A stretch of DNA of 64,000 nucleotides, taken from the NCBI RefSeq assembly GCF_003946095.1, contig NZ_RHOD01000007.1, positions 1 through 64,000 on the forward strand. Reading direction: 5' to 3'. Below are positions 55,852 through 64,000 of this stretch, one piece after another. A model generated the notes under the pieces. The model was not told where the DNA came from. It did no database searches and saw only the letters and a list, made by a program, of their open reading frames with translations. How positions within the stretch are numbered: the stretch's first letter is position 1; every line of letters begins with the position of its first letter. The position numbers and the translations under genes are program-made. The stretch is from Levilactobacillus lindianensis (GTDB lineage Bacteria > Bacillota > Bacilli > Lactobacillales > Lactobacillaceae).

Positions 55852-56060
55852 GATGATTCTCCTTTACTTTAATCACTTGTCCGCAGAAATAGTGTCTAAT
55901 TAGGATAGTTTACGGGATGGGGCCGTTACGTGCAAGAGAAACCTCACTAACCGGGACAAATCAACCGCATCACTACTACAGAAAGCCCTTTCACCATCAA
56001 ATCATTTGTGCTAACATTCACATGTAGGCACTAACCCTCGTCAGTTAAGGAGGTTCCAGC

Positions 56061-57077
56061 ATGAAATCTGTTTATGTTACGGGTCCTGGTAAAGTCGCTT
56101 GGAAAACCATCGACGCCCCGCAAGTGGGCCCAAATGATGTGTTGTTGCAGATGAAAGCTTGTGGTATCTGTGGGTCGGATGCGATGTACACCCGTATTGG
56201 CGGGATTCCACCCCGTCAGGGCGCCACACCGCTAGGCCACGAACCCGCCGCAGAAGTTAGCCAGATTGGGGCCAACGTCAAAGGCATCGCGGTCGGCGAT
56301 CACGTGGTTATCGATACTCTGAAATTCACAGATGGGCTGTTAGGCAGTGGTGGTGCTCAGGGAGGGCTCTCCGACTTCGTCCTAGTCAAGGACTTCCAGC
56401 CGGGACACCAACTTCGGGTCATCCCCAAGGACATTCCGTGGCAAGTAGCCGCATTAAATGAACCCATGGCCGTCGCGGCTCACGCCGTTAATCAAACGCA
56501 GCCTAAACCAGGTGACAAAGTTGTCGTCTTCGGTGCTGGTCCAATTGGCTTAGGGGCCCTCCTCAGCTACAAGCGAAAGGGCGTTGCTAGTGTCGTTGTG
56601 GTGGACATCATCCAGTCTCGTTTAGATAAAGCCCTAGAAATTGGCGCTGATGCCGTCATTAATTCTGCCAAGGAAAGCGTCGGCGAACGGTTAGTGGCCC
56701 TGCAAGGTAACGGTGCCAGTGGTTTCATGCGGGGTGTCCATCCCGCAACTGACATCTATCTGGATGCCGCCGGCGCTGCGCCAGTCTTCCAAACCGTACT
56801 CGACATCGCCAAGCACGGGGCCACGCTGGGTGTGGTAGCCGTCTACACTAAACCGGTGGAATTGAATTTCGCCAACGTTCTGACCTCGGAACTCCATGTG
56901 GTCTGGTCCATGGGCTACCCGACGGAAATCTTCGAAGTCACCGATGACATCATCGATCACCCCGACAAATACGCCAAAATTATCAGTAATACCTTCCCGT
57001 TCGACCAGGCCCTCGATGCCTTAAAGATGGCGCGAACCCCTGGTGCCGCGGACAAGGTAGTCGTCACCTTTGATTAA
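56061..57077 (+). CDS. Zinc-type alcohol/polyol dehydrogenase (MDR)
   Basis: A 338-residue MDR dehydrogenase. Catalytic zinc residues lie in GICGSD (about residue 37), GHEPAAEV (about 62) and NEPMAVAAHAV (about 140); nucleotide fold VFGAGPIGLGALL. It lacks the four-cysteine structural zinc lobe, as in some sorbitol/threonine-dehydrogenase relatives. RBS AAGGAGG. Monocistronic. Substrate unknown. Confidence 0.83.
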   Translation: MKSVYVTGPGKVAWKTIDAPQVGPNDVLLQMKACGICGSDAMYTRIGGIPPRQGATPLGHEPAAEVSQIGANVKGIAVGDHVVIDTLKFTDGLLGSGGAQGGLSDFVLVKDFQPGHQLRVIPKDIPWQVAALNEPMAVAAHAVNQTQPKPGDKVVVFGAGPIGLGALLSYKRKGVASVVVVDIIQSRLDKALEIGADAVINSAKESVGERLVALQGNGASGFMRGVHPATDIYLDAAGAAPVFQTVLDIAKHGATLGVVAVYTKPVELNFANVLTSELHVVWSMGYPTEIFEVTDDIIDHPDKYAKIISNTFPFDQALDALKMARTPGAADKVVVTFD

Positions 57078-57090
57078 TTAACATCATTTA

Positions 57091-57137
57091 ACGCCTTCTC
57101 AATTTGCTCGTTGCCGATCGGGAAGGCGTTTTTATAT
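57091..57137 (+). terminator. Terminator of the MDR dehydrogenase
   Basis: AACGCCTTCtC pairs with GgGAAGGCGTT, followed by TTTAT. Confidence 0.7.
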
Positions 57138-57255
57138 TTTTTTGATTGTCGCCCTCCCTACTAATGCCGTCACGGCGCCCCTTGTCCCAACTTGCGAAAG
57201 GGCTTACTATTGAGACAGGAGTATTTATCTTCAAAAGTCAGGGGAGGCTTTTCTA

Positions 57256-58437
57256 ATGTTTAAAACTGGAATCAAAGTGACCGCCATTGCGGCGTTGCTA
57301 CTGGGAATCGGATTGTTCAGTCCAGTCACCGCTCACGCTCAATCGGATTACAAGATTACATCGACTCAGGACGTGACGCCGGAACCATACTATGTCGCAC
57401 GCAACATCAGCTCACACTATTCATGGGACAAGACCCACACCAAGCGATTAACCTTTCTAAATGAGTTTCAAAAAAACTACAGTGTCTATGTGACCCAGAA
57501 GGTTACCATGACCTACAAAGGTAAAGCGACAGCCTACCTACATATTGCGAATAACTACGGCATGGATTACGGCTACGTCACCGCAAAAAGTATGCGCAAG
57601 GGATTCAATCCTACCGACACCGACCTCCAACCTTACCAACCTGCCAAGGGTCCCCAATCTCCAGAAATCATGACCGTTAACCGCGTGTCTAAACAAGCCT
57701 TCAGCAAGGTTAGTTCACGACTAAACAAGATTACCTATTACCGTACGACGAAAAAAGTGAAACTTAACGCCGATTTTACGAGCTACATGAATGTCGGTTC
57801 TACAACCCTTTCAACGACAATTCCCGCTGGAACTATCGTCGGTGGCTATCGAACGTCTAACGACCTAGCAATTGACACAGACGCTTTAAGCCAAAACTTT
57901 TTACGTTCAGGTTATCGGCAAGGGCTGTGGGTCGCTGGTGGGGAACTGATCACCAGCCCCGCTAAAATTAAGGCATTCAAACAAATCAAACGCCCTGCTT
58001 ATCTTCCCAAATATGACAGCTTTGGTCTCTTGTACTCCGGCGGAATCAACGCTATTCGAAATCAGAAGGCCATTTTATCAAAACAGAGTGTTCAAATTAC
58101 TTCCAACGGTTATGTAGAAATTCGACAGAACAATCCTCACGGACAGGCTACCGAATACAACTCGCAGCCACTAGCCTCGGTTAAAATCAAACGAACCAAA
58201 ATCAAAGGCCACACACGTTATTTGTATTTGGCCAAATCCTTAAAGGGCTACAAAACCACCAAGGTTCGCTATCACGGCAAACGACAGTACCGCTTGGCTT
58301 TGGTTAACCAGCAAAAGACTTACGCCATCAAGGACCCCGGAACCGACGAATTCACCAGAACGACGTATTACGGCGGCCTAACATTCGGTGGTAAGACGTT
58401 CTACACTTCTTATGGAACGGTTTCGAACGCGAAATAA
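57256..58437 (+). CDS. Exported surface protein, paralogue of 41091
   Basis: A 393-residue protein with signal peptide MFKTGIKVTAIAALLLGIGLF...HAQ (about residue 30). An N-terminal SLAP-like part (SSHYSWDKTHTKRLTFLNEFQKNYSVYVTQKVTM) is followed by the domain shared with the protein at 41091 (SQNFL, TIPAGTIVGG, RPAYLPKYDSFGLLYSGG) and a basic end. RBS GGGAGG. No sorting signal; probably wall-associated through its positive charge. Family unnamed. Confidence 0.68.
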   Translation: MFKTGIKVTAIAALLLGIGLFSPVTAHAQSDYKITSTQDVTPEPYYVARNISSHYSWDKTHTKRLTFLNEFQKNYSVYVTQKVTMTYKGKATAYLHIANNYGMDYGYVTAKSMRKGFNPTDTDLQPYQPAKGPQSPEIMTVNRVSKQAFSKVSSRLNKITYYRTTKKVKLNADFTSYMNVGSTTLSTTIPAGTIVGGYRTSNDLAIDTDALSQNFLRSGYRQGLWVAGGELITSPAKIKAFKQIKRPAYLPKYDSFGLLYSGGINAIRNQKAILSKQSVQITSNGYVEIRQNNPHGQATEYNSQPLASVKIKRTKIKGHTRYLYLAKSLKGYKTTKVRYHGKRQYRLALVNQQKTYAIKDPGTDEFTRTTYYGGLTFGGKTFYTSYGTVSNAK

Positions 58438-58466
58438 ACTGCAAGTTTGATTATTCAGTTACATAA

Positions 58467-58507
58467 AAGAGGAGTGGATAAATAACATTATCCACTCCTC
58501 TTTTATC
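58467..58507. terminator. Bidirectional terminator
   Basis: AAAAGAGGAGTGGATAA-n7-TTATCCACTCCTCTTTT between the surface protein and the helveticin gene. Confidence 0.85.
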
Positions 58508-58530
58508 TTACACTCACCAAATTAAAACCA

Positions 58531-59583
58531 TTAAACTAACGTTTTGTCAAAATGATATAATCGGTTTCTCACTTCATCAGGAGTATTCGTAACCTTGTTC
58601 CAAGGATGATACGTAGCACCCATATAGATATCGCCACCTACGATGTGAATACCTTCCAGTTCAACACCATATCCTGGCTTACCTTGTTCCGCCGTATAAT
58701 TTCCCCAGTTCTCATTAATAAAAATCTTTGGAGAACCAACTGTCTTCGAACCAACTGCAAACTTCCAGATATTCTTAGCTGCTGAACCCACTTCAGGATC
58801 ACCAGTACCTGCTTCACATACCACGTAGGCATTCCCATTGTTGGTCAACGCAATCCCTTGTAGTGAGCAAACATCCACGGGCTGATTGCTATTTGTAATC
58901 TTTGGAGGAACCACATTGAACAGATCTTCCTTCTTCTTGCCATTAAAATCACTAGCATTTCGATAATTGGTTCTCCCAATTGACACCTCATTCGTATTCG
59001 ACTTTCCAGCTGCCTTGAATAAGGACTTAATGTCGGACATTGCATAAAGTGCCATGTGACTCGTATTACCTGGAACAAAGACCCACAAAACAATGTTAGC
59101 CTTTGCGCTGTCTACAGAAAATTCTACTCGCTTAGGTACGCCAGCACTTTTACTAACACCAGCATTATTCATAGACCCAATACGCAGCAGATCATGGTAA
59201 GAAACTGTTGCATTCTGATCAACCAAAGAAACAGGCACCTGCGTCAACTGAGTACCATAACTACCATCACTACTCCCCTTAGTCGTAATCAAAAGATACG
59301 TTTCACCATTGTCATTGTACACATCCATCGATTCACAATGACCTGCGAAATAAGTCTTATCACCATCCGTATAGCCCTTAATTGTCAACATGGAGAGCGG
59401 TGTACTGATACCACCTTCGACGAAGTTATACTTAACAATTTCTTGCTGAGACTTCCCTTTAGAAACGAAAATCCCATAACCAATATTGCTCTGTGCTGGA
59501 TCCAGTACGAAGTTTTGCATCGCGTTATTCGGCACCAAATCCGTCTTCTCAAAATCAGATAATAAATGTGTTGTAATAGTCAT
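58531..59583 (-). CDS. Helveticin J-type class III bacteriocin
   Basis: A 350-residue protein of the helveticin J family. Supporting blocks: DLVPNNAMQNFVLD at the start, KTYFAGHCESMDVY, VCSLQGIALTNNGNAYV near residue 235 and the closing VELEGIHIVGGDIYMGATYHPW...VRNRLYHFD. No signal peptide, so release would need lysis or pores; two holin-like genes lie just upstream. ATG 59583 has AAAGGTG about ten bases before it. Its promoter carries the same activator box as the holin promoter. Confidence 0.78.
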   Translation of the reverse strand: MTITTHLLSDFEKTDLVPNNAMQNFVLDPAQSNIGYGIFVSKGKSQQEIVKYNFVEGGISTPLSMLTIKGYTDGDKTYFAGHCESMDVYNDNGETYLLITTKGSSDGSYGTQLTQVPVSLVDQNATVSYHDLLRIGSMNNAGVSKSAGVPKRVEFSVDSAKANIVLWVFVPGNTSHMALYAMSDIKSLFKAAGKSNTNEVSIGRTNYRNASDFNGKKKEDLFNVVPPKITNSNQPVDVCSLQGIALTNNGNAYVVCEAGTGDPEVGSAAKNIWKFAVGSKTVGSPKIFINENWGNYTAEQGKPGYGVELEGIHIVGGDIYMGATYHPWNKVTNTPDEVRNRLYHFDKTLV

Positions 59584-59635
59584 ACTTATCATTCACCTTT
59601 ACAGTTTTTTGTCATCAGCGCCGATAACAATGATA

Positions 59636-59685
59636 AGTATATCTAGTTTTAAACCGTAGCACGTGCGTATTTCGTGCCTTTTTAA
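59636..59685 (-). promoter_or_regulatory. Activator box A and promoter of the helveticin gene
   Basis: On the minus strand GCACGAAATACGCACG (59662-59677), then 20 bp, then TATACT (59636-59641). There is no -35 hexamer at the right place. The box is a GCACG direct repeat with an 11-bp period and is preceded by TTAAAAAG. Confidence 0.7.
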
Positions 59686-59693
59686 GCGAAAAG

Positions 59694-59721
59694 AACGGAC
59701 CAGAAAAACTCTTCTGGTCCA
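59694..59721 (-). terminator. Terminator of the holin operon
   Basis: GGACCAGAA / TTCTGGTCC; on the minus strand followed by GTTCTTTT. It separates holin and helveticin transcripts. Confidence 0.6.
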
Positions 59722-59727
59722 CATTTC

Positions 59728-60018
59728 TTATTCCTCCTCACCTTTGAACAACGTTTTTAACTCCTCATCGTGCCGAGCTAAGGTCACCTCATGCTCGTGG
59801 AGCTTGCCATCAATCGCCCTATGTTCCCAATCCTCGTGCTCCCGATTCACATGAACCTCATGGGCTAGCGACTTGACGGCCTCGCTAAGATCTCGGTTCT
59901 GTTCATTCAGCGGCCTTAAAATAATCATCCGAAAGAGATAAAATATCCCACCGCATATCGTTGCCATAAGTCCTAATAGACTTGCCCAGTCCTCAATAGT
60001 TAGTCCGAAAACCTGCAT
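59728..60018 (-). CDS. XhlA-like phage membrane protein (holin accessory)
   Basis: A 96-residue protein. One N-terminal TM (LLGLMATICGGIFYLFRMIIL) is followed by a charged coiled coil (residues about 35-90), the reverse-like layout of XhlA-type proteins that work with holins. ATG 60018 has GGGAGGTG before it. It follows the LLH holin gene by 32 bases. Confidence 0.68.
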   Translation of the reverse strand: MQVFGLTIEDWASLLGLMATICGGIFYLFRMIILRPLNEQNRDLSEAVKSLAHEVHVNREHEDWEHRAIDGKLHEHEVTLARHDEELKTLFKGEEE

Positions 60019-60050
60019 TCCCAATCACCTCCCTCCAGAATAATCAGCGA

Positions 60051-60392
60051 TCACCGATTATTATTGATCTGCCGCTTATAGTTTTGGTAGGCGGCTTCAA
60101 CCTTTGCCGTAGCATTTTCTTTCGAAATAGCCTTGCCGAGATTTGCCATCTCATTAATTAAAAATTGCACTGCTGCTTCCCGACGATCGGCGTTGGTCAT
60201 TCCTGACATCGCTGACAACTCGGCTACAATTGTTTGGGCAAAGTTGTCAGCAATTTCCAGATCACGCTTCAGCCGTTCGTCCTTCTGAGCCGCAATTCTG
60301 GCTTTAATCAATGGCCGTAGCAAGGCATAAACAGCGGGGATAACCGTTAAACTAAACGTTAACCAGACTGTCGCATCTATCGTCTGCGCCAT
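60051..60392 (-). CDS. Phage holin, LLH family
   Basis: A 113-residue LLH-type holin: N-terminal TM (TVWLTFSLTVIPAVYALLRPLI), then a charged helical domain with FAQTIVAELSAMSGMTNADRREAAVQFL and AYQNYKRQIN, as in phage LL-H holins. ATG 60392 follows GGGAGGTG. It should form membrane holes; without an endolysin nearby it may serve bacteriocin release. Under activator box B. Confidence 0.8.
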   Translation of the reverse strand: MAQTIDATVWLTFSLTVIPAVYALLRPLIKARIAAQKDERLKRDLEIADNFAQTIVAELSAMSGMTNADRREAAVQFLINEMANLGKAISKENATAKVEAAYQNYKRQINNNR

Positions 60393-60423
60393 TATCACAT
60401 TCACCTCCCTCTTCTCGGACCCT

Positions 60424-60454
60424 AGCAAAAAGGACAGACCCATCAGTCTGCCCC
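60424..60454 (-). terminator. Terminator in the holin leader
   Basis: On the minus strand GGCAGAC-tgatg-GGTCTGTCC followed by TTTTTGC. It starts about eight bases after the predicted transcription start of promoter B, so it could attenuate that transcript or stop readthrough from the early operon. Confidence 0.55.
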
Positions 60455-60467
60455 TGGCCCTAGCACC

Positions 60468-60516
60468 ATTCTAGGGAAACTTTTACTGTCATCCGTGCGG
60501 GTTTTGTGCTTTTTAA
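60468..60516 (-). promoter_or_regulatory. Activator box B and promoter of the holin operon
   Basis: On the minus strand GCACAAAACCCGCACG (60494-60509), 20 bp, TAGAAT (60468-60473). Box and distance equal those of the helveticin promoter; TTAAAAA precedes both. Confidence 0.7.
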
Positions 60517-60517
60517 C

Positions 60518-60931
60518 CTAGCATCGAAATCCCAGTCGCTTCGCTACCGTATTGAAGAAACGGGTCCGCTTACGACTCGCGGCGCTACGACCGATGTGTA
60601 GCTGATACGCGACACCTGTAATTGTTAGTATCGAATCCCGCTTAAAATACAACGCCGTAATAATTGCCTGTGTATCCTCATCACTCTCCGCCAACGTCTC
60701 TGCGATCACTGCTTGATTCTCACGTAATAATCGCAGATAGCGATCTGTGGCAATCGTTATGGCTACCCGCGTCTGCCGATGCTTGCTCCCATCTTGCGAT
60801 CGTTCAATCGTTACCTCGTCACCCGGCCAATAAGGCACTGCGATCTGCTGTTCACGTTCCCGAATGTACTGATCCGTACTCGGATAATCATGTAGGATGT
60901 CTTCAATGTAACGAAATGTCCCAATTCTCAA
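60518..60931 (-). CDS. ArpU-like phage late transcription regulator
   Basis: A 137-residue protein. N-terminal charged part (YIEDILHDYPSTDQYIRERE), central helices, and a C-terminal sigma-region-4-like HTH (ILTITGVAYQLHIGRSAASRKRTRFFNTVAKRLGF), the layout of ArpU-type late activators in phages of low-GC Gram-positives. TTG 60931 lies four bases after GGGGG; ATG 60958 overlaps the previous stop and is also possible. It is the likely activator of boxes A and B. Confidence 0.7.
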   Translation of the reverse strand: MRIGTFRYIEDILHDYPSTDQYIREREQQIAVPYWPGDEVTIERSQDGSKHRQTRVAITIATDRYLRLLRENQAVIAETLAESDEDTQAIITALYFKRDSILTITGVAYQLHIGRSAASRKRTRFFNTVAKRLGFRC

Positions 60932-60957
60932 ATTACCCCCACCTCTCCAAGTGATCA

Positions 60958-61182
60958 TTAATCTTTAACCTGCCGACTCTCACTCAAAGCGTAGTCATAG
61001 ATAGATTTTAAGTTAGCTATTGTCAGCACCGTTGACTCACATTTCCAAAATAATAATTGTTGATCGTCAAACGTAATCGTTCGCTGACCATTCAGATACA
61101 GCGTCGATTCAATCACCCGCGGATGGGCGTGTCGCAGGCTCTCTGTCGCCTCTAAATTACGAACAAGTTCACTTGTTGTCAT
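60958..61182 (-). CDS. Small hypothetical phage-type protein
   Basis: A 74-residue protein without a recognised domain (strands STLYLNGQRTITFDD, QLLFWKCESTVLTIANL, then a helix). It lies eight bases after its upstream neighbour, whose stop is close to its AAAGGA site, and its stop touches the region of the ArpU-like start, so it belongs to the early operon. Confidence 0.6.
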   Translation of the reverse strand: MTTSELVRNLEATESLRHAHPRVIESTLYLNGQRTITFDDQQLLFWKCESTVLTIANLKSIYDYALSESRQVKD

Positions 61183-61190
61183 TCATGACA

Positions 61191-61628
61191 TCATCCTTTC
61201 TCGTTAAGTTGGTACCCCTTACCTTTAGACTCAGTGGCCCTGTTTTCCTTTGATCCAAGCTGGAGCTGATCAACTAACTGAAACGTTGGCTGCAACCACT
61301 GGGCATCAATTTCCAAAATAGCCATAACCTCTCGATGACTATACCCCGCCAATCGTAATTGAAAAACATTTTCGCTGATCCGATTGGCCTCATCTACCGG
61401 AAGTTCTTGCAACGACCGATGCCGATAGGGGACTGGGACACCACGACAAGCTAGACTTTGTAACGTCTTGAGTTCCTTATCTCCATCTGGAATTGCCACC
61501 AACGAACACCCGTGACGACGTTCAACATTGTCAATCTGCTTGATGATTGCCCGCCGATAAGCCAATGCCAGCTGAAGATATCGTTTTTTACGTTGGACAT
61601 AACGTGCTAAAAGTTGATTTAGTTTCAT
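61191..61628 (-). CDS. Hypothetical protein with HTH-like helices
   Basis: A 145-residue basic helical protein and first gene of the leftward early operon. Residues about 95-125 (ENVFQLRLAGYSHREVMAILEIDAQWLQPTFQ) look like a helix-turn-helix. It opens with a coiled coil (LNQLLARYVQRKKRYLQLALAYRRAIIKQID). ATG 61628 follows AGAGGTG. It may be an early regulator; the function is not known. Confidence 0.6.
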   Translation of the reverse strand: MKLNQLLARYVQRKKRYLQLALAYRRAIIKQIDNVERRHGCSLVAIPDGDKELKTLQSLACRGVPVPYRHRSLQELPVDEANRISENVFQLRLAGYSHREVMAILEIDAQWLQPTFQLVDQLQLGSKENRATESKGKGYQLNEKG

Positions 61629-61679
61629 TCTTTTCACCTCTTTATTATTGCTTAATAAGCTAAAATAACACGCTTTAAA

Positions 61680-61692
61680 ACGGTTTTACCGT
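61680..61692. promoter_or_regulatory. Repressor-type palindrome ACGGTTTTACCGT
   Basis: Second copy of the ACGGTTTWACCGT dyad, about 50 bp before the first early gene. A further dyad CCGTTAT-cttc-ATAACGG is at 61715-61732. Confidence 0.6.
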
Positions 61693-61875
61693 AAACGAGT
61701 GTATGTAAAGTCCCCCGTTATCTTCATAACGGTTATTCTCGGTTTCCGATTTAGGTCACTAATTTCTTCCTATCAATCCTCACTTCTTACCACACCTCTG
61801 CCAGCATTAACACTACGCGCATTTAATCCCACCAAGTTAGTCATCCCATTTACAGAAACGCCGTTTAACAAATTG

Positions 61876-61904
61876 ATTATATAACGGTTTAACCGTAATT
61901 ACAA
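61876..61904 (-). promoter_or_regulatory. Early leftward promoter with operator in its spacer
   Basis: On the minus strand TTGTAA (61899-61904), 17 bp, TATAAT (61876-61881). The dyad ACGGTTTAACCGT (61884-61896) lies wholly inside the spacer. Bound repressor would block RNA polymerase. Confidence 0.75.
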
Positions 61905-61944
61905 TGTTTTTTACCGGAAAAATTATCTTTTCATCAGTGAAATA

Positions 61945-61972
61945 TTGCTTTTATCCGTTAAAGTTCTATAAT
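61945..61972 (+). promoter_or_regulatory. Promoter of the repressor gene
   Basis: TTGCTT (61945-61950), 16 bp, TATAAT (61967-61972), divergent from the early promoter 41 bp away. A half-site (ATCCGTTAAAG) lies in the spacer. Confidence 0.7.
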
Positions 61973-62056
61973 ATAAGGTGTAGTGAACCAGCACATTAAC
62001 TGATAATCAAAACTAGAGACCCACCGCTCACACCAAAGGATCAGGAGGAACTACCA

Positions 62057-62668
62057 ATGAATAACAAAGAAGTCGTGGCACAGAACTTGGATAATCTCAT
62101 GCACCGCCATAGTGTCACGCGAAGTAAGCTCGCTGACGACTTGGGAATTAAGTATTCCACCCTATCCGATTGGCTGAACGGGCGAACCTACCCGCGCGTC
62201 GGGGCTATCACCCAACTGGCAACCTATTTCAACGTCTCCCCCTCTGCCATTGTAGATAGCACGGAGCCCAGTGAAGTCTTACAAGGCGTTGTTTCTATCC
62301 CCATTATCGGAACGATTGCGGGTGGCTCACCCATCTTAGCCGACGAACACATCGAGGGTTACGTCAAAGAACTCAAGGCCGGTCTCCCTGTGGGTGAACT
62401 CTTCTACCTGCGGGTTAAAGGCCACTCGATGGAGCCCACCATTAAAGATGGATCACTGGTCCTCATCAATCGCCAACCAGAGGTCTCAGACGGCGACATT
62501 GCGGCCGTCCTCATTAACAATGAGGCCACACTGAAACGCGTCACCATTCAGGATGGCAAATACATTCTGATCCCCGACAATAAAGATTATCCCCCGATTC
62601 TACTCGACCAAAGCAATGAAAACCGCATTCTCGGTAAGGCCATTCGGGTCACCATTAATTTAGAATAA
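62057..62668 (+). CDS. CI/LexA-like repressor with S24 autoprotease domain
   Basis: A 203-residue phage-type repressor. HTH_3 at residues about 5-60 (SKLADDLGIKYSTLSDWLNGRTYPR), then a peptidase S24 domain with cleavage site Ala88-Gly89 (GTIAGG), nucleophile Ser124 (GHSMEP) and Lys160 (ATLKRV). Such proteins cut themselves when RecA is active. It faces the early operon and should keep it silent until DNA damage. RBS AGGAGG. Confidence 0.9.
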   Translation: MNNKEVVAQNLDNLMHRHSVTRSKLADDLGIKYSTLSDWLNGRTYPRVGAITQLATYFNVSPSAIVDSTEPSEVLQGVVSIPIIGTIAGGSPILADEHIEGYVKELKAGLPVGELFYLRVKGHSMEPTIKDGSLVLINRQPEVSDGDIAAVLINNEATLKRVTIQDGKYILIPDNKDYPPILLDQSNENRILGKAIRVTINLE

Positions 62669-62681
62669 GCCTTCACAAAAT

Positions 62682-62723
62682 AGGGCCACCACAGTTAGTC
62701 AAAACTAACCGTGGTGGCCCTTT
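62682..62723. terminator. Terminator of the repressor gene
   Basis: AGGGCCACCACaGTTAGT-caaa-ACTAACcGTGGTGGCCCT followed by TT. Confidence 0.8.
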
Positions 62724-62743
62724 CTACTTAATAATTATCGTCG

Positions 62744-62759
62744 TGTTTCACATGAAACA
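62744..62759. repeat. parS-like palindrome TGTTTCACATGAAACA
   Basis: Perfect copy between convergent genes, three bases from the stop of the GTPase gene. Confidence 0.6.
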
Positions 62760-62761
62760 TC

Positions 62762-64000
62762 CTAGCTGAGTTTGGCCAATTCGGCTGGCGTATAGGCATA
62801 ATCCACGTGCGCCATCCCCGGAACCTCGTCCCAGGGGACGGGATAACCGGCACCGTGCGCACAGAACACGGAACCCGGGGTATTCGGCAAATCCCCGACC
62901 GGGTCGTACGCCTGTGCCGCCACCACCTCATCGGCATTGTGACATGGGCGATAGCCATCGATCAGGCACTCCAATTGGCCCTTGCCATGTGTATAGGCAT
63001 TGACCTCCTGCGCATAGTCCTGCATGGCGGTCACCGGGGCGGTTCCCGTCAGCACAGCCATCTCACCCGCATCCACCGGTGTGTCAAAGTCACCACTCAT
63101 CCGTTGAATATCCGTCATGGCGCGACCAATTTGATCCTGACCTACTTCCAACCGGAAACGATACCAGGGTTCCAACAGTTGAAGGCCGTCATTTTCACGA
63201 AGCATCATCAGGCCCTGACGCACCGCGCGCCACGTGGCCTCCCGGAAGTCACCGCCGACCGAATGGACAATGCTGGCGCGACCAGTCACGAGAGTAACCT
63301 TGGCATCTGTAAGGGGTGATCCTGTCAGAACGCCCAGTTGTTCCTTGGCGCGAAGATTCGATAACACTTGATGTTGCCAGTTTTTTCCGAGGATCTCCAA
63401 CGAACAGTCCGCTGCAAAGGTCAGACCACTGCCCCGGGGCGCCGGTTCAATCAACAGGTGAACCTCCGCGTAATGCCGGAGGGGTTCGAAGTGACCGACC
63501 CCCTCAACGGCCTTTGTGACGGTCTCCTTGTACAGAATGCTTCCGGCATCAAAACCAACATCCAATTGAAAACGGTCGTGCAGAATCTGTTGGAGAATTT
63601 CCAATTGAACGGTCCCCATGATTTGAACACGAATCTCCTGCAGGTGGCTGGACCATGTGACGTGGAGCTGTGGATCCTCATCTTCCAATTGCCGAAAGAT
63701 CGTGAGGCAGTCATGCAGATCGTGGCCTTGCGGATCCACCGCATAGGTTAGTACCGGCTGAATCTCTGGCGTGCGCTCATCCGCCACATTACCCAGTCCC
63801 TGACCGGGATAGGTGTCTGTTAGATTGGGGATTGCACAGACCTCACCGGCCGCGAAACTCTGCCGAATTTCAAATTTAGTGCCGTTATAGACCCGGAGCT
63901 GGTTGACCTTCTGTTCCCCGAGTAGCACGGTCTTGGTGGCCAGCTGGCCCCCAGTGATCCGTAACCAGGTCAGCCGCACCCCCTTGTCGTCATGCGAAAT
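62762..64000 (-). CDS. Tet-like ribosomal protection/translation GTPase, C-terminal part
   Basis: The frame is open to the window edge, so the 5' half, including the GTPase domain, is outside. The 413 visible residues cover EF-G domains II to V: FAAGEVCAIPNL, TYPGQGLG, MGTVQLEILQQILHDRFQLDV (domain III) and a C-terminal YTHGKGQLECLIDGYRPCHNADEVV...SVFCAHGAGYPVPWDEV, typical of TetM/TetP-like proteins. Whether it protects against tetracycline cannot be judged; chromosomal relatives often do other work. Confidence 0.8.
   Translation of the reverse strand: MSHDDKGVRLTWLRITGGQLATKTVLLGEQKVNQLRVYNGTKFEIRQSFAAGEVCAIPNLTDTYPGQGLGNVADERTPEIQPVLTYAVDPQGHDLHDCLTIFRQLEDEDPQLHVTWSSHLQEIRVQIMGTVQLEILQQILHDRFQLDVGFDAGSILYKETVTKAVEGVGHFEPLRHYAEVHLLIEPAPRGSGLTFAADCSLEILGKNWQHQVLSNLRAKEQLGVLTGSPLTDAKVTLVTGRASIVHSVGGDFREATWRAVRQGLMMLRENDGLQLLEPWYRFRLEVGQDQIGRAMTDIQRMSGDFDTPVDAGEMAVLTGTAPVTAMQDYAQEVNAYTHGKGQLECLIDGYRPCHNADEVVAAQAYDPVGDLPNTPGSVFCAHGAGYPVPWDEVPGMAHVDYAYTPAELAKLS

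Follow-up and report, generated by a model that had tools for sequence, protein, structure and literature searches.

The 64,000-nucleotide stretch of Levilactobacillus lindianensis DNA analysed here (contig NZ_RHOD01000007.1, positions 1 to 64,000; hereafter the window) carries at 58531-62668 a short gene cassette that was probably derived from the late genes of a tailed prophage and domesticated for the production and release of a helveticin-type bacteriocin. Read from right to left, a CI-like repressor gene on the forward strand faces six genes on the reverse strand, namely: g148, g74, a RinA-family activator, an LLH holin, a small membrane protein of PHROG 1009 and a relative of helveticin. 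A first-pass annotation of the sequence had placed the six genes and the divergent repressor just where we find them. It had also described a cassette without capsid or endolysin, and gene content, Pfam and PHROGs agree: neither gene lies within 58531-62668, tail and head genes are absent from the same interval by open reading frames (ORFs), Pfam and PHROGs, none was recognised by eye in the surrounding ORFs, and genes for integrase, primase and packaging are likewise missing from the window locus. What that inventory missed is a secreted protein encoded convergently at 57256-58437. The contig extends 50 kb past the window, and the first 13 kb beyond the edge were read; they hold EF-G-like, MFS, SDR, MerR, GNAT-type and LPXTG-type ORFs and a CRISPR-like region (named by eye; two ORFs were scanned, one of them without a match), and the full prophage that the annotation had allowed for past the edge does not appear over this length.

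The late regulator scores 99.3 bits against TIGR01636 (NCBIfam, cut-off 31.9) and falls in PHROG 36; its earlier label, 'ArpU-like', was right as to type, with RinA-family being the more precise name. The holin, which has one transmembrane (TM) segment and, judged from its sequence, more likely starts at 60392, was correctly assigned to the LLH family (PF09682, 30.1 bits, Pfam cut-off 24.9). The label 'XhlA-like' for the small membrane protein of 98 residues finds no Pfam support, as the XhlA model does not match, and the protein belongs instead to PHROG 1009, of unknown function. For g74, Pfam and PHROGs gave no match and NCBIfam no credible one, while homologues of g148 occupy the equivalent position in loci L007, L029, L070 and L078.

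Taken alone, the window helveticin matches no Pfam family at E values up to 0.1 and stays below the gathering score of Helveticin_J (PF17312), and its siblings at L070 and L078 are likewise below that cut-off. It does match (27% identity, E 7e-9) a protein that is encoded on a Lentilactobacillus hilgardii plasmid and annotated to the helveticin J family; the L. hilgardii plasmid helveticin scores 97 bits against PF17312, and one relative from genus g37 scores 228. Profile comparison by hhalign of six Levilactobacillus proteins with six helveticin-family proteins, two of which match PF17312 and four of which were without a Pfam scan, gives a probability of 99.5 (E 1e-22, 240 columns), the homology covering the conserved C-terminal two thirds. 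Since the homology is remote and comes from profile comparison, with no PF17312 match for the protein alone, we call it helveticin-related; of the earlier 'helveticin J-type' label the homology stands and membership of the Pfam family does not. That the protein is signal-less, as first described, agrees with a hydropathy check. NCBIfam yields zero matches for eight helveticin relatives, tblastn of helveticin against named phages returned 0 records, and of two PDB sequence searches one gave 0 and the other three chance-level matches. The sibling at L078 (6053-7051) has a weak, sub-threshold match to a phage five-bladed beta-propeller receptor-binding domain (PF21311, E 0.0018), and helveticins may be propellers of phage origin.

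Comparison of the holin and helveticin leaders reveals a shared pattern, GCACRAAANNYGCACG-N20-TANANT, that occurs three times in the 2.33-Mb genome, namely: before the holin, before this helveticin and before a second helveticin on contig C18, so that both full-length helveticin genes of the genome have it. Across 35 Levilactobacillus genomes there are seven occurrences, five at helveticin and two at holin genes, against 0/35 for the reversed control; all seven fall in four genomes with known helveticin, and at least 24 of the 35 genomes had been searched for helveticin. Two of seven full-length helveticin genes are without the exact pattern, i.e. a stand-alone copy, in which the spacing is shorter, and a broken copy. 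A virus contig found later (see below) has the exact pattern before its helveticin and, within a few bases of the end of its rinA, the core with N20-TAATAT; the core also stands directly after rinA in the window and in L. paucivorans. Genome G249 carries another repeat with an 11-bp period, of the GATGCGAC type, after rinA and before two helveticin genes, and genomes G346 and G291 each have a single copy of a third promoter version, which precedes the cassette helveticin (the pattern was drawn from these sites). Published Ltr and Alt late activators use direct repeats beside their own gene (PMC13123087; here and for the other papers cited, statements refer to the part of the text available to us). 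The shared pattern, the core after rinA and the published placement of repeats make RinA the likely common activator, and we regard it as very probable, from these sequences, that RinA drives both the holin and the helveticin promoters. The earlier guess that the cassette is one regulated unit thereby becomes a specific prediction, carried by a shared late promoter before holin and helveticin.

Among 26 rinA loci, some of which are related prophages, 10 reach the cut-off with a period-11 repeat after the gene, and any other period from 6 to 17 does so in at most 3; in the window the repeat that follows rinA is imperfect and falls below the cut. At helveticin promoters the same test gives a modest excess, 12 of 80 vs. 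26 of 530 controls (4.9%) at 8/9 matches, with one of the 12 positives in genus g37 and one (L027) being an AT-rich stretch beside the element. TGGCRGT repeats with an 11-bp period also precede several helveticins of the other genus; because the reversed control equals the matches in 4 of 8 genomes, and no rinA was seen using these repeats, no regulator is claimed for this class. As for the operators, the window was shuffled 100 times and three or more matches never arose. A general promoter scan of the region found 8 promoters with 9.5 expected, and the g148 promoter call therefore rests on conservation and on its operator. A dyad of the AATC..GATT type follows the helveticin -10 box in 20 of 52 leaders outside g37 vs. 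3 of 297 control genes, by a pattern made after viewing; it may be an operator or a 5' hairpin of the mRNA.

Helveticin relatives were found in 14 of 397 Lactobacillaceae genomes by protein search and in 51 of 397 by profile search, and at least one stretch was retrieved for 48 of the 51. RinA, LLH holin and helveticin stand within one stretch in 9 of the 48 genomes, including G282, in which RinA, GH25 and holin lie on the strand opposite helveticin. The minimal set with a divergent CI is present in four of these nine (the window, L. paucivorans, G346 and G291), and the remaining five loci retain extra phage parts, including a GH25 endolysin. Because the minimal set stands in four loci, a holin without an endolysin is a recurrent arrangement. 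The order CI / g148-(g74)-RinA-LLH-(XhlA-like)-helveticin is common to L. paucivorans, at the same site, and to G346 and G291, which belong to another genus; the search for this gene order outside prophages in Lactobacillaceae, suggested by the first-pass annotation, thus finds it in two genera. L. paucivorans DSM 22467 (L007) has the same neighbourhood at about 97% identity. G346 and G291 share no protein of at least 120 residues with the window stretch or with each other once the cassette and the partner family are set aside, both loci are flanked by chromosomal genes (GdpP, DnaB, a PLP enzyme, transporters), and none of ten flanking proteins scanned from the two matched a head or tail PHROG. 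The minimal set occupies three unrelated sites.

A phage relative is at hand in a 43-kb IMG/VR virus contig, about 18 kb of which was read: it encodes a tape measure protein, Dit, another tail protein, holin, GH25, a PHROG 1009 protein, helveticin and a convergent partner. Identities are 63% for the LLH holin, 57% for the PHROG 1009 protein, 44% for helveticin and 52% for the partner (to one L. paucivorans partner), and a short RinA (110 residues, 51% over the aligned part) is encoded about 13 kb further upstream. The RinA scan of viral contigs, which detects close relatives only, had given 0; RinA was found in one contig afterwards. The contig likely holds the ancestral lysis end, in the order tail-holin-GH25-small membrane protein-helveticin, and from this layout the window locus looks like a phage RinA end joined to the lysis end, with morphogenesis genes and endolysin lost. 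'Prophage-derived', as the locus was first called, is supported both by the capsid-less recurrence outside prophages and by a virus contig with the same lysis end. Near the viral helveticin-partner pair lies a second moron, an abortive-infection resistance family gene (PHROG 2158; L231, 12873-13832).

Other helveticin loci were also noted. At L029 (398-10527; G234, C12) an integrase piece, ImmA, a repressor, a D5-type primase, RinA, holin, a frameshifted GH25, a PHROG 1009-type protein and helveticin form an element in which no structural genes were seen, which suggests a satellite-like element or a deleted prophage. The second helveticin of the window genome (G000, C18, 8697-10783; L005) has its own late promoter, a PHROG 1009-type protein, an endolysin fragment and two partner genes, with a C-terminal scrap of helveticin between the partner genes, beside a homoserine-kinase-type gene. 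In G249, from another genus, four helveticin genes or gene fragments lie in a neighbourhood like that of L005, which suggests a shared hot spot (gene names by eye).

All cassette ORFs are intact in both the window and L. paucivorans. Between the two, the ratio of nonsynonymous to synonymous substitution rates (dN/dS) is 0.004 for CI, 0.13 for RinA, 0.16 for the holin, 0.17 for the PHROG 1009 protein, 0.18 for helveticin, 0.23 for g148 and 0.28 for g74. Helveticin is the least conserved cassette protein, with 116 of the first 120 columns identical and 84 of 145 from column 211 on. Synonymous divergence is uneven between the genes, from 0.05 to 0.78, a sign of recombination. With intact ORFs, low dN/dS and recurrence in two genera, the gene set holds together as the one unit that had been described, and the comparison indicates with high probability that this unit is under selection.

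The partner gene lies directly downstream of helveticin, facing it. Outside genus g37, the next gene after helveticin is convergent and encodes a secreted protein (200-430 residues, by a simple signal-peptide rule) in 35 of 58 cases vs. 11 of 364 controls, and in g37 a secreted protein lies downstream in either direction in 11 of 30 vs. 27 of 279 controls. A convergent gene also follows helveticin on the 6.9-kb L. hilgardii plasmid and on the virus contig. A signal peptide and an N-terminal domain are common to the partners of Levilactobacillus and of other genera, including L. hilgardii (probability 97.9, 109 columns), and beyond this domain the proteins differ; none of eight partners scanned rises above a Pfam cut-off. 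Over 41 convergent pairs (helveticin of at least 250 residues, gap of at most 600 bp, partner of 200-430 residues, other layouts dropped), similarity between helveticins correlates with similarity between their partners (r 0.617; 0/2000 permutations, and 0/1000 when partners are swapped within genomes), and the correlation drops to r 0.35 for dissimilar helveticins.

In genome G234 the ADH and EF-G-like genes stand side by side, i.e. the site is empty. In the closely related sister G279, whose EF-G-like protein is 98% identical, these two genes flank CI (99%) and six partner genes, all of them intact, whereas helveticin, holin, RinA, g74 and g148 are all absent from this site. One partner of the array is 93% identical to that of the window and another is 91% identical to the partner of a divergent L. 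paucivorans helveticin, compared to 52-78% in the other comparisons and 46-52% to two further L. paucivorans copies; L. paucivorans has both partner types, and G279 carries a helveticin elsewhere (C40). Matching partner alleles kept after loss of the toxin cassette are what immunity genes would be expected to show and the strongest argument for immunity, and the convergent partner is, we judge, rather likely to be an immunity protein.

We propose the following mechanism, in which the binding of RinA, the release and killing steps, the immunity and the inducing signal are inferred. The CI-like repressor would sit on the palindromic operators in the g148-g74-rinA promoter; once repression is lifted, RinA would be made and would activate two late promoters of one design, one serving the holin and the small membrane protein and the other helveticin. 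The signal-less helveticin would then exit when the holin opens or kills the cell, with no need for an endolysin, and homology and gene order tilt us towards such holin-dependent release. The convergent neighbour at 57256-58437 would be a surface protein that shields the producer and its kin from the matching helveticin allele. A wider scenario, which we hold to be evenly balanced, is that helveticin and its partner are a phage-borne toxin-immunity pair under phage late transcription: upon prophage induction the lysing cell would expose its kin to helveticin, and lysogens would be spared thanks to their surface partner; pair and RinA switch would have been domesticated at several Lactobacillaceae chromosomal sites, and bystanders would keep arrays of partner alleles for protection.

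The observations that weigh against this proposal bear on its trigger, its promoters and the helveticin-partner pair. The repressor has an S24 domain (PF00717, 103 bits, Pfam) with a Ser-Lys dyad placed by LexA alignment, which would fit the earlier description of it as RecA-cleavable. The residue before the cut makes cleavage uncertain: the motif there is IAGG in all five repressors of the window type (four cassettes and G279), as opposed to IACG in four and ISAG in one of five phage repressors taken from 522 matching records, i.e. Gly occupies P1 where the phage proteins have Cys or Ala. A LexA cleavage site has Ala or Cys before the scissile Gly, and the window repressor departs from this. 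Nor is there a LexA box, at up to 2 mismatches, in 61638-62056. With no box and Gly at P1 in all five aligned repressors, SOS induction of the locus, as first suggested, is not yet supported. In G291, a perfect LexA box, GAACGTATGTTC, overlaps the -35 element of the g148 promoter (G291 has six sites of this kind in all, vs. 2 for the reversed control), and G346 has a one-mismatch box at the same place. In the window genome the same consensus precedes ORFs read by eye as Y-family polymerase and DnaE, with 12 matches on both strands (reversed control 5). The sibling's perfect box makes damage induction plausible for the cassette family; DNA damage as the natural trigger is a matter of even chances and the weakest link of the proposal. 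The G279 repressor (L217, 7518-8129; C23) is 99% identical although the operon it faced is gone, and lies 90 bp from the last partner gene; its retention may reflect recent operon loss or another role.

With regard to the promoters, the patterns were derived from the sites that they describe, the virus contig alone being out of sample, and the virus site after rinA keeps the N20 spacing but, with TAATAT, departs from TANANT. At L070 and L078 (G346 and G291) the equivalent promoter stands before helveticin and none was seen before the holins. In the window the holin half repeats are weak as 11-bp repeats (5/8 matches), the helveticin promoter reaches 7/9, under the cut of 8 in the family-wide period test, and the hairpin with T5 at 60427-60454 separates the holin promoter from its gene, as also in L. 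paucivorans. The 16-bp direct-repeat element (59662-59677 at helveticin, 60494-60509 at the holin) might serve another regulator, the role of RinA having been lost, given that the stand-alone helveticin on L. paucivorans C154 has a variant element with no rinA in cis, and that the C18 helveticin has the exact element with no adjacent rinA (RinA in trans is conceivable). We consider this quite unlikely, as the core directly follows rinA in three genomes or contigs, the GATGCGAC-type repeat of G249 stands both after rinA and before two helveticins, and the Ltr and Alt activators set a published precedent for repeats beside the activator gene (PMC13123087). It is also possible that the partner is a surface adhesin, an anchor for helveticin or an unrelated traveller, and that helveticin may serve at the surface or in receptor binding and not in killing. 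In g37 few helveticins have the convergent secreted layout (2/30 vs. 10/279 controls), none of the eight partners scanned has a Pfam family, the PF21311 match of the sibling helveticin is to a receptor-binding propeller, and a study of an L. johnsonii helveticin proposes neighbouring transport and multidrug-resistance proteins for export and immunity (PMC10703779). Furthermore, linked genes co-diverge to some degree without interaction, and linkage alone could explain part of the correlation; AlphaFold models of helveticin and partner are poor (pLDDT 31 and 34, from 2 and 3 sequences). Against this alternative, the orphan array holds the partner alleles of two relatives' helveticins, the pair travels on both the L. 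hilgardii plasmid and the virus contig, and several helveticin homologues are reported to be antimicrobial (PMC5471241), so that it appears doubtful, and an immunity role remains the one that we prefer.

The cassette could instead be a decaying prophage remnant with no selected function, its genes merely not yet lost. Signs of decay exist: the endolysin is gone from the window locus, related loci beside the homoserine-kinase-type gene have decayed to endolysin fragments and an L. paucivorans helveticin with an in-frame TGA, and G279 is without the whole toxin-holin part at this site. A remnant is nevertheless unlikely in view of ORFs intact in two species with dN/dS well under 1, the retention of both late promoters and both operators, and the same minimal set at three unrelated sites. 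Derivation from a phage satellite (PICI-like) rather than from a prophage would be in keeping with the layout of L029, with its integrase piece and primase and no structural genes seen, but is very improbable, since the lysis end most alike in kind is that of a virus contig with tail genes and RinA and the window locus has neither integrase, primase nor packaging gene. A selected, domesticated late module thus remains the preferred account of the locus, the features of which are listed in the following table.

Features of the cassette and its convergent partner (positions in the window)
Feature	Coordinates	Strand	Evidence or remark
CI-like repressor, helix-turn-helix and S24 peptidase, Ser-Lys dyad, IAGG at cleavage position	62057..62668	+	PF00717 103 bits, LexA alignment
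Predicted repressor-gene promoter TTGCTT-N16-TATAAT	61945..61972	+	pattern scan; identical in L. paucivorans
Palindromic operator ACGGTTTAACCGT, in spacer of g148 promoter	61884..61896	strandless	kept in L. paucivorans
Predicted g148-g74-rinA promoter TTGTAA-N17-TATAAT	61876..61904	-	promoter scan; conserved in L. paucivorans
Second operator ACGGTTTTACCGT	61680..61692	strandless	kept in L. paucivorans
g148, small protein, first gene of operon; start GTG 61637 or ATG 61631	61191..61637	-	weak PHROG 11108 match
g74, small protein	60958..61182	-	present in L. paucivorans
RinA-family late transcriptional activator	60518..60958	-	TIGR01636 99.3 bits; PHROG 36
Predicted holin-operon late promoter GCACAAAACCCGCACG-N20-TAGAAT	60468..60509	-	leader comparison, pattern scans
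Terminator-like hairpin with T5, holin leader	60427..60454	-	RNA fold of 60415-60460; also in L. paucivorans; unlisted by terminator scanner
LLH-family holin, one TM segment; likely start ATG at 60392	60051..60443	-	PF09682 30.1 bits
Small membrane protein, 98 residues, one TM segment	59728..60024	-	PHROG 1009 (E 8e-18)
Intrinsic terminator separating holin operon from helveticin, 12-pair stem	59695..59722	-	scanner and RNA fold
Predicted helveticin late promoter GCACGAAATACGCACG-N20-TATACT	59636..59677	-	leader comparison, pattern scans
Dyad TTATCGGCGCTGATGA at presumed helveticin transcript start, after late promoter	59612..59627		
Helveticin-J-related protein, 353 residues, signal-less; likely start 59583	58531..59592	-	profile comparison
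Convergent secreted partner, 393 residues, signal peptide, probable immunity protein	57256..58437	+	

No Rfam match was found in 56000-64000, and a defence system was rejected as an explanation of the locus, PADLOC having given generic helix-turn-helix-type matches alone, all to the repressor. On C65 of the window genome, at about 73.4-76.4 kb (L004, 16400-19414), CRISPR-like repeats are read as ORFs with repeated peptide motifs, and a Cas2 fused to a DnaQ-type exonuclease adjoins them.

Helveticin homologues are common in lactobacilli (PMC5471241), and helveticin J producers have an immunity-protein gene, left unnamed in a 2021 review according to which the mechanism of immunity is undescribed (PMC8538875). 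If correct, our proposal would name immunity, release and control for this class III bacteriocin family. The locus offers a testable answer on each count, with RinA-type late promoters as control, the holin as exit and convergent surface proteins as immunity, and the orphan array of a sister species makes allele-specific immunity directly testable. The locus is also a clear case of parallel stripping of prophages to the same few genes, for which the likely ancestral lysis end is available on a virus contig. In the open-access literature searched, which leaves subscription journals mostly uncovered, we came across no helveticin described as having phage late control, a holin and a convergent partner, and no description of the exit route of a signal-less helveticin.

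Several known systems resemble parts of this arrangement. In colicin operons a repressed toxin is combined with a lysis-type release protein and a convergent or adjacent immunity gene, and the cassette likewise has a toxin under predicted repression, a putative release protein and a convergent candidate for immunity. Colicins, however, depend on LexA-only control and a lysis lipoprotein, whereas here a phage late activator and a holin act, by prediction, in a Gram-positive host with no LexA box. PBSX is a defective, domesticated prophage that, like the cassette, has a small membrane protein and a holin; unlike in PBSX, no structural particle genes were found at the window locus. The RinA, ArpU and Ltr activators of siphophages serve packaging and morphogenesis, while the predicted targets here are a holin and a bacteriocin. 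The toxin is homologous to helveticin J and the PF17312 bacteriolysins, from which the window protein differs in falling below the Pfam cut-off and the locus in its phage late promoter, holin and convergent partner. Finally, holin-linked signal-less bacteriocins are already known in clostridia: on pIP404 of Clostridium perfringens, the signal-less Bcn5 is genetically linked to a holin and a dedicated transcription factor, UviB and UviA (PMC9527704). The cassette resembles Bcn5/UviAB as a Gram-positive signal-less bacteriocin tied to a holin and a transcription factor, although Bcn5, going by its description in the same source, is unrelated to helveticin. There, UviA is a sigma factor, UviB a BhlA holin and an endolysin is always present, whereas the window combines RinA, an LLH holin and a CI-like switch with no endolysin.

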